Below, in pieces: positions 4,655-30,743 of a stretch of DNA of 30,743 nucleotides. The first letter of the stretch is position 1; every line of letters starts with the position of its first letter. A program made the translations under genes and the position numbers. The notes beneath the pieces are model-generated. The model saw nothing but the letters and a program-made list of their open reading frames with translations, was not told the DNA's origin and searched no databases. This stretch comes from a virus, in the IMG/VR virus record IMGVR_UViG_3300020020_000125, positions 1-30,743 of that record; one strand, given 5' to 3'.

Positions 4655-4669
4655 CGCCTGTACGTACTA

Positions 4670-4687
4670 GATACTGATACTGATACT
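4670..4687. repeat. Three tandem GATACT hexamers
   Basis: GATACT is repeated perfectly three times in the short gap after the DUF1376 gene, directly beside the 12-bp iterons. It lies in a locally AT-richer stretch, as expected near a DNA-unwinding element. The role is inferred from position. Confidence 0.7.
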
Positions 4688-4693
4688 GCCTCG

Positions 4694-4793
4694 CGTTATG
4701 GTGGTCGTTATGGTGCGCGTTATGGTGCGTGCCGCAATCGTTACGCTATTCGTTATGGTCCGCGTTATGGTGTCCGTTATGGTGCGCGTTATG
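4694..4793. repeat. 12-bp iterons (CGTTATGGTGCG-type), candidate origin
   Basis: Copies of CGTTATGGTNNN start at 4694, 4706, 4718, 4739 (degenerate), 4751, 4763, 4775 and 4787 (partial). They run in two phased blocks of period 12, with a 9-bp interruption at 4730-4738. The array overlaps the 3' end of the DUF1376 gene and continues past its stop codon. Iterons inside or beside the initiator gene are the classic lambda-O arrangement, so this is a good candidate replication origin. The exact 12-bp period also means it encodes a repetitive His/Asn tail. Confidence 0.7.
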
Positions 4794-9116: not shown

Positions 9117-9260
9117 ATGCGTGTGTCAAATGGGATTCTCGCTCTCCCGAAAAAATTAGGGGGGGGGGGGGGGGGGGGGGTGGGTGGCAAGTGCCATGCC
9201 AATAATCGGCGCGTAGTCGGCCGCCCCTCCTACGCCCTCGCTCGATCCGGAGCGCGGTGA
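9117..9260 (+). CDS. 47-aa ORF interrupted by a poly-G tract
   Basis: A strong SD (GGAGGT at 9107-9112) precedes the ATG. The product starts MRVSNGILALPKKL, then seven Gly encoded by the 22-G run, then a Lys/Arg-containing tail ending SGAR. The stop overlaps the next gene's start region (GTGATG), consistent with coupling. With one G more or fewer, the frame ends within 9-12 codons after the tract, so the tail is phase-variable in principle. The small size and low complexity leave its reality uncertain. Confidence 0.4.
   Translation: MRVSNGILALPKKLGGGGGGGVGGKCHANNRRVVGRPSYALARSGAR
9159..9180. repeat. Homopolymer of 22 G
   Basis: An uninterrupted run of 22 G on the plus strand, by far the longest homopolymer in the window. 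Tracts of this length slip readily during replication and sequencing, so its exact length in this assembly is not reliable. It lies within the 47-aa ORF at the start of the rightward cluster. Confidence 0.95.
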
Positions 9261-12518: not shown

Positions 12519-13631
12519 ATGACCAACGAATACAAGATCAAGAAAACCGATCCCCGGCTCGCGTTGCGGGGGGTCCGCATCAAAGGCCGCCAGTGGGAAG
12601 TGTCCCGCCAGGTGGCCGGCAAACTGTGCATCGCCATGATGCCGATCGAGAGCACGGCCGCCGCGCTCATCGCCGAGTGGGAGCAACTCAAAACCGCCGC
12701 CCCCAAGGCGGCCGAGGCCGGCACGCTCCCGGCCGCCATCGCCACGTTCAAATTGCAGATCACCGCGATGCCAAGCTACGGGGCCACCGCCCGCGAGTTG
12801 GATCGATGGGTGGCGGAACTGGATGCGGCCGATCGCGATCCGGCCTCGATCACCGCTGACGACATCGCCATCGTCTTGAACCGTTGGAAGATCCCCGTAG
12901 CGCGGCCGGCCGGCCTCAAAGGGCGATGGGCACCCGTGCCCGATCCCGGCTCCACGGTCATCAAGCGGCTCTCGGCTCTCTCTCGGTTCTACTCGGTGAT
13001 GTTCCCCGCGTTGCCGAATCCGATCGATGCCCTCGGGGATCGCCGGCCCAAGGCCAAGGGGGCCGAGGTACGCGGGGTGCCGATCGATGTGCTCGTCCGG
13101 ATCATCGCGGCGATGCCGGATACGTTCGGCCGGAGCCGCAAGCCGGGAGCGCGGCTTTCGCTGGCCAAGATTCGCGCCACGGCGATGGCGTACACCGGCC
13201 TTGATCCGATCCAACTCAAAGAGTTGAAACCCAACGATGTGATCCTCGGCCCTGACGCGGGCACCGTGCGGAGCTATCGCCGCAAGGGGGATGGCGTGGT
13301 CATCGATACGATCCCGCTCACCGGCCCCGGCCTCGCGGCGATGCGGGCCTTTGTCGCGGCCGACGCGTTCGGCACGTTCAACACAACGGTCGTGTACCGG
13401 GCCGTGGTCCTCGCGGCCGCCAAAGCCGGCATCCCCCGGGGCACGTTCCGCACCAAGGATCTCCGGCACTCGTTTGGCTCGCACCTGTACACGGTCTGCG
13501 GAGACCAGGCCACCGTGGGCCGGTTTCTCTTTCACGCTCCCGGCTCCAAGATGACCGCGAGGTACACCCGCTCGGCCAATCGCGTGGTAAACGAGGCCGC
13601 CGCCGCCGCGTTCGTGTTGCCCGCCGAGTAG
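12519..13631 (+). CDS. int: Tyrosine recombinase (integrase), atypical active site
   Basis: 370 residues: an N-terminal SAM-like/arm-binding region (about 1-175) and a C-terminal catalytic domain. Catalytic motifs are AYTGLDPIQLKEL at 224-236, YRRKGDG with Lys256, KDLRHSFGSHLY at 313-324 with Arg316, LFHAP with His339, and ARYTRS with the nucleophile Tyr349. The box-I Arg of the usual TGLR motif is Asp229, and the box-II His is Lys313. Similar TGLP/TGLD variants occur among environmental integrases, as far as I recall. The ATG has GGAG 6-7 nt upstream. It sits next to the attP candidate. Confidence 0.9.
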   Translation: MTNEYKIKKTDPRLALRGVRIKGRQWEVSRQVAGKLCIAMMPIESTAAALIAEWEQLKTAAPKAAEAGTLPAAIATFKLQITAMPSYGATARELDRWVAELDAADRDPASITADDIAIVLNRWKIPVARPAGLKGRWAPVPDPGSTVIKRLSALSRFYSVMFPALPNPIDALGDRRPKAKGAEVRGVPIDVLVRIIAAMPDTFGRSRKPGARLSLAKIRATAMAYTGLDPIQLKELKPNDVILGPDAGTVRSYRRKGDGVVIDTIPLTGPGLAAMRAFVAADAFGTFNTTVVYRAVVLAAAKAGIPRGTFRTKDLRHSFGSHLYTVCGDQATVGRFLFHAPGSKMTARYTRSANRVVNEAAAAAFVLPAE

Positions 13632-13637
13632 TACAAT

Positions 13638-13697
13638 CACGGGGCCGGCGGCCCGGGCGATCGTGCCCGCCGCCGGCCCGTGGTTTCCAGAGTTTTT
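13638..13697 (+). terminator. Rho-independent terminator after the integrase
   Basis: CACGGGG-CCGGCGG and CCGCCGGCCCGTG form a 13-bp stem with one bulge, closed by an inner CGGGC/GCCCG stem. TTTTT follows at 13693-13697, about 10 nt past the stem. This is a strong hairpin but the U-tract is displaced, so efficiency is uncertain. It lies 6 nt after the integrase stop. Confidence 0.6.
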
Positions 13698-13953
13698 GTG
13701 CAAAGTCTGGCAAACGGGTCTGGAAGAAAACGCTAACCGCTTTGTTTGCTACAGCTTAAACCATGTAGCATTGTCCAGCATAAAGACCCCGCCCCACCCC
13801 CGACACCCCCTCAAATCGCTAGCTTTTCCTAACATTTCCGCGCATCTTCGCTCTTCGGTTCGCCTCGCGCCTATCGTCCATTGCGACATTTGCACACTCT
13901 GAATCCCTAACGATTCCGCGAGGTCTGGAAAGAGTCTGGAAAAAGTCTGGAAA
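13684..13953. other. attP: Candidate phage attachment site attP
   Basis: TGCTACA (13747-13753) and TGTAGCA (13764-13770) are perfect 7-bp inverted repeats around a 10-bp AT-rich spacer, as expected of core sites around a crossover region. On the left are GTCTGGCAA (13705), GTCTGGAAG (13718) and an inverted TTTCCAGA (13684). On the right are three perfect GTCTGGAAA copies at 13923, 13934 and 13945, spaced exactly 11 bp (one helical turn). This matches the arm-core-arm plan of lambda-like attP and lies beside the integrase gene. The bacterial partner site cannot be read here. Confidence 0.75.
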
Positions 13954-14017
13954 GAATCACGAGGCCGGCCGGCCGAGTTTTGAGAGCGGGATCGGATCGC
14001 GTTACGGCCGCGATGGA

Positions 14018-30458: not shown

Positions 30459-30569
30459 ACAATTTCCCTCCTGTCAAGGTGGCGCTAAGTGGGGCGAAAC
30501 CTCGAATCACTTACGGGATCGGCCGGCGGCCCCATTTCGGCCCATCTTGAGAACGTCCGTAACTCGTTG

Positions 30570-30595
30570 ATTCTAAAAGACTTGTTTACTGTCAA
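30570..30595 (-). promoter_or_regulatory. Candidate late promoter (TTGACA, TAGAAT)
   Basis: On the minus strand TTGACA (30595-30590) is followed by TAGAAT (30575-30570). Both hexamers are excellent sigma-70-type matches, but the spacer of 14 bp is short; reading TTTTGA as -35 gives 16 bp. It lies in the AT-richest part of the junction, upstream of the TerS operon. The -35 overlaps an ACTGTCA motif also found in the early control region. Confidence 0.5.
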
Positions 30596-30617: not shown

Positions 30618-30743
30618 TTTCCCGGCTCCCCGTAACTGCACATTCGCCCTCCCCCCCCGATGTCGAGTTACGGGCATTCCGCACGTGCGCGATCGCGCTC
30701 CCGCGTTACGGTGATTCACGTAATCGAACCGATCACAGACCGG
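30618..30743. repeat. Right copy of 126-bp terminal direct repeat
   Basis: Identical to bases 2-127 at the other end of the contig. On the circular map it must be counted once, which brings the late-operon leader directly next to the end of the HNH gene. Confidence 0.95.

Follow-up and report, generated by a model that had tools for sequence, protein, structure and literature searches.

Results

The window, meaning the whole 30,743-nucleotide stretch analysed here, is the record of a complete virus with identical 126-bp ends (2-127 and 30618-30743); the record is therefore circular or circularly permuted and closes to a circle of ~30.6 kb. A gene for a tyrosine integrase of 370 aa, int, lies on the plus strand at 12519-13631 and converges with late genes on the minus strand. 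Immediately 3' of int, on the plus strand, is a GC-rich, terminator-like hairpin with a perfect 11-bp stem (13642-13679; inverted repeat I15), and beyond it lies a repeat region that is AT-richer than the rest of the genome (50% GC in 13684-13953 vs 64% genome-wide). Six putative arm sites are found in this region. P1 (13684-13692, minus strand; repeat search, shuffle test) reads TTTCCAGAG, an inverted CTCTGGAAA with one mismatch to GTCTGGAAA. The direct pair P2 (GTCTGGCAA, 13705-13713; word search, shuffle test) and P3 (GTCTGGAAG, 13718-13726) follows on the plus strand, as do P4, P5 and P6 (13923-13931, 13934-13942 and 13945-13953; word search), each of which is GTCTGGAAA, with P4 218 bp from P2. 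All of these words, together with the dyad TGCTACA-N10-TGTAGCA at 13747-13770, are present where the original prediction had placed them, and the 11-bp steps of the right-hand triple (13923, 13934, 13945) are confirmed, but the left pair is spaced by 13 bp, not 11. Nor are the arms symmetrical around the dyad, as had been proposed, since the left pair is 20 bp away from it and the right triple 152 bp. The word GTCTGGNA occurs five times in the 30.7-kb window, always within the att region. When a single 9-mer was counted on both strands of 13632-14000 with at most one mismatch, 500 dinucleotide shuffles averaged 2.7 copies and peaked at 5, so that none reached the six observed. The arm repeats are not due to chance.

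The integrase matches PF00589 with 20.9 bits, under the curated cut-off, and the phrog_1 integrase family with an E value of 3e-8. An AlphaFold2 model built with 22 family sequences (pLDDT 87.8) comprises an N-terminal unit of three strands and a helix (residues 19-58) followed by core-binding and catalytic domains. Lambda Int (1z19) is among its best structural matches (Z 17.3), in full-length alignments spanning residues 9 to 365, and as modelled the protein is a tyrosine recombinase of the lambda-like, arm-binding kind. In alignments with XerD and lambda Int, the canonical Arg I (TGLR/TGQR), corresponding to R212 of lambda Int and the TGLR arginine of XerD, is replaced by D229 in the window and by D, P, S, A or G in relatives L083-L154. 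Position 229 varies across the 22 sequences, in which R254, K256, G257, R316, H317, R348 and Y349 never change and R219 almost never does. We found no relatives of the integrase in cultured-phage and plasmid collections, and a single-protein search of viral_contigs returned no close relative. An integrase profile gave one weak match in genome_contigs, adjoining a tRNA-Gly on a short contig from a Bacillota MAG, which is uninformative as to the host.

Relatives were gathered through the terminase: a TerL search returned 80 related phages (~61-73% identity), whole-record searches of 43 TerL-related contigs yielded integrases 26-44% identical to that of the window, and a profile search of the integrase added 38 further loci. 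The closest integrase, 44% identical, belongs to L083, where a GTCCGCCA pair with 13-bp spacing (d13) is followed by three GTCCGCCAA copies with 11- or 12-bp spacing (d11/d12) at +209, +220 and +232, all direct. The d13 pair is common to the window, L083 and many other relatives. Conservation in relatives had been named as a check on the predicted site; the layout is kept, and the arm words are unrelated among relatives. Several relatives hold the 3' half of a tRNA gene between their repeat clusters: tRNA-Arg(CCT) in L106, L108 and L100, tRNA-Val(CAC) in L087 and L088, tRNA-Gly(CCC) in L117 and L120, and tRNA-Glu(TTC) in L118 and L119, the anticodons being read by eye. Such a half between repeat clusters next to an integrase gene is a classical sign of attP. 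Because many of the relatives' sites have one, we take these sites to be attPs, and the original assignment of the window's repeats as arm-type integrase sites within an attP is strongly supported by the same layout at related integrases.

The shared layout can be expressed as distances. A first finder, which required two tandem pairs of one 8-mer (at most one mismatch, 11-13 bp apart) separated by 150-260 bp, matched ~25 of 39 loci in real sequence and gave 0-1 match per 60 shuffled trials per locus. A wider finder (separation 60-420 bp, 10-14 bp within pairs) detected the arrangement in 26 of 41 integrase relatives, some of them near-duplicates, with ~16 unrelated arm words. The separations ranged from 184 to 240 bp and were mostly 216-218 bp (10 of the 19 de-duplicated values), the window's being 218 bp. 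Within the whole window the att region is the sole match to this two-pair grammar, and over ~780 kb of DNA from related phages it reported 17 clusters, at least three of which are true attPs. Strict helical phasing of the separations was also considered; a Rayleigh test over 19 loci gave p ~1e-4, but the distinct values alone give p ~0.08, and for that reason we do not claim it.

Other features keep their place relative to the pairs. Six loci (L100, L108, L117, L119, L148 and L150) have a T-arm that begins at +92 relative to the d13 pair, which puts the anticodon loop, where tRNA identity starts, at +71 to +78; L122 departs from this, with its T-arm at +80. Consensus sites for IHF are found at +41 and +120 in relatives and are mirrored in reversed loci, which as a whole are mirror images in which the d13 pair stays on the core side. 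On the P' arm, the block CCCTCAAATC (13808-13817, plus strand) lies 115 bp ahead of the right cluster in the window, L117 and L119, and 117 bp ahead in L127. Local alignments of P' with L119 and L127 exceed 999 to 1000 of 1000 shuffles.

Searches with core words of genome_contigs and viral_contigs revealed no attB, lysogen or prophage junction. The check on host genomes that accompanied the original prediction was negative, as a 22-mer across the dyad matched none of the 84,980 species genomes in genome_contigs, and in viral_contigs neither a 20-mer from the dyad core nor an 18-mer from the core predicted below had a match. The double arm word had eight matches in viral_contigs, none beside a relative of the integrase and most apparently within coding sequence; those in L114 and L116 look non-coding. 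No tRNA fragment or T-arm was detected in 13600-14000, unlike in the relatives, and an Rfam scan of the att region gave no credible match. The phage therefore probably targets an intergenic site or a gene other than a tRNA gene.

Discussion

We place at about 90% the probability that the region 3' of int is the attP, with integrase arm sites, of a temperate, uncultured, soil-type phage. From what can be read directly, namely the repeats, their location, the conserved geometry and the integrase fold, we infer binding, bending and a crossover point as follows. The N-terminal domain of the integrase would bind arm sites of the GTCTGGAAA type, P1 and P2-P3 on the int side and P4-P6 on the far side, while the core-binding and catalytic domains would bind the core between the two clusters. 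A host protein resembling IHF or HU would bend the ~218 bp between clusters, bringing arm-bound integrases into contact with the core for its recombination with attB. An attP, along with a testable prediction of its crossover, can be obtained from sequence alone, for a phage clade that was not found in the cultured-phage and plasmid collections searched nor, one weak match excepted, in the species genomes.

Since the d13 pair of the window is on the left, the core should sit in the left, int-proximal half of the region, and in this broad sense the position proposed by the original prediction agrees with ours. The dyad that it took for the core is not itself established as such. Its left half overlaps TTGCTACAGCTTA (13746-13758, plus strand), which aligns with the IHF-like H sites of relatives, AATCAAGCACTTA in L108, AATCAGTCACTTA in L100, TATCATCAAGTTA in L117 and AATCAACAGGATA in L084, all at +41. 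This H position is assigned by alignment with the relatives, because TTGCTACAGCTTA has three mismatches to WATCAANNNNTTR; no IHF consensus within one mismatch occurs in the window's attP, the degenerate site standing at the expected offset where relatives have clear ones. From the alignment with L084, the left arm of the dyad would be the H position and the crossover would be expected at 13776-13783, within a predicted core of 13771-13787 that is placed by the anticodon-loop crossover of relatives at +71 to +78. We therefore consider strand exchange at ~13776-13783, just right of the dyad, to be the probable event. Exchange within the dyad at 13747-13770 is a less likely option that nevertheless deserves attention, given that no other perfect 7-bp dyad occurs between the two arm clusters, that the dyad falls in the core-proximal half, where the d13 pair is, and that L083 has a dyad as well (ACTTAC-N3-GTAAGT) at about the same offset. 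Against it, the relatives' crossover is ~20 bp further right, the 22-mer across the dyad is without a match in genome_contigs, and such dyads are frequent by chance. When the 196 bp between the arms were shuffled, 89 of 2000 trials (4.5%) produced a perfect 7-bp dyad with a spacer of 4-14 bp, and 80 of 312 segments of equal length from elsewhere in the genome, which is GC-rich, contain one too. The dyad is only weakly above chance. A crossover elsewhere than at these two positions is improbable.

Arm-site geometry is conserved in this clade and arm sequence is not. We think it reasonably likely that the clade's attPs obey a rigid, mirrorable ruler with the d13 pair at 0, H at +41, the crossover at +71 to +78, H' at +120 and a distal d11/12 pair at ~+218, along which arm words turn over completely, and that L5, Giles and Pixie have nearly the same distance between pairs with no detectable integrase homology. 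If the ruler is true, geometry alone could be enough to locate the attP of an unannotated phage and perhaps its crossover as well. That it spans integrases unrelated in sequence may be the new part of this work; a limited open-access literature search found no earlier account, which is weak evidence that it is new.

The site arrangement itself is of a kind already known. In the Pixie attP, a pair (P2, P3) on the left and P4-P6 on the right are all direct, and a sixth site, P1, is inverted on the left (PMC3203893). The window has the identical inverted P1, direct pair and direct triple, and its pair-to-triple distance of 218 bp compares with 223 bp in Pixie as recomputed from the record. The contention that sites of this sort can rarely be made out by eye was accordingly too strong, the same six-site arrangement having already been read from sequence in Pixie (PMC3203893). 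Pixie differs in that its core is a 47-bp segment of tRNA-Lys, its attP is 5' of int, and its arm words and integrase sequence are unrelated to those of the window. Giles and L5/D29 similarly have two tandem pairs of arm sites ~221-225 bp apart (recomputed as 221 bp for Giles and 225 bp for D29, the latter with two mismatches allowed), but these are pairs rather than the window's triple and use other arm words. Their attPs have tRNA targets. With lambda the window shares the heterobivalent integrase fold and arm sites that flank the core left and right, whereas in lambda the H and X sites are clear, Arg I is present and the finder did not detect the two-pair grammar.

Another reading accepts the site as attP but takes it for a relic, on the grounds that D229 stands in the place of Arg I and the enzyme would be inactive. 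We regard this as very unlikely. The whole clade lacks Arg I, yet R254, K256, R316, H317, R348 and Y349 are invariant, and arm words have diverged between phages with geometry kept, as selection predicts. Because the canonical Arg I is missing, activity of the window's integrase is assumed from this conservation. Moreover, integrases of the CTnDOT type lack Arg I, another arginine substitutes for it, and the CTnDOT integrase is active with its arginine relocated (Smyshlyaev et al. 2021, PMC8138268). IntDOT resembles the window's clade in missing Arg I at the usual place, and the clade has an invariant arginine two residues before the catalytic Lys (R254-x-K256). The substitute arginine of IntDOT lies likewise two residues before its catalytic Lys, which is the place of R254. 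By analogy R254 is a candidate for the stand-in, the window's enzyme being a phage integrase of another lineage, and the clade may be one of phage integrases whose catalytic arginine has moved.

We give almost no credence to the 11-bp repeats being replication-origin iterons or repressor operators instead of integrase sites: these too are direct repeats at about one helical turn, and int is preceded by an Arc-like ORF, but the cluster sits between converging genes (int on the plus strand, late genes on the minus strand), a poor location for an operator, a better iteron-like array is present elsewhere in the window (4692-4793), and the same layout in relatives brackets tRNA 3' halves, for which neither iterons nor operators account.

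Several further features of the window and its relatives were recorded. At 4665-4793, ~eight CGTTATGGTG units in 12-bp steps follow four copies of TACTGA in an iteron- or operator-like array. The TTTCCTAA-like word TTTTCCTAAC at 13823-13832 is also present in the att regions of L083, L106 and L096, at varying offsets. In L011, a TerL relative whose contig has no PF00589 match, tandem GTGTGCAC pairs lie 231 bp apart at 501-740 and may mark an attP whose integrase is missing or very diverged. A run of ~22 consecutive G is found at 9159-9184 (26 bases, 92% G). Lastly, a perfect IHF consensus occurs just once in the window, as AATCAACGAGTTA (30560-30572, minus strand); it is intergenic, lies near the contig end repeat, and is possibly part of a packaging (cos/pac) region.
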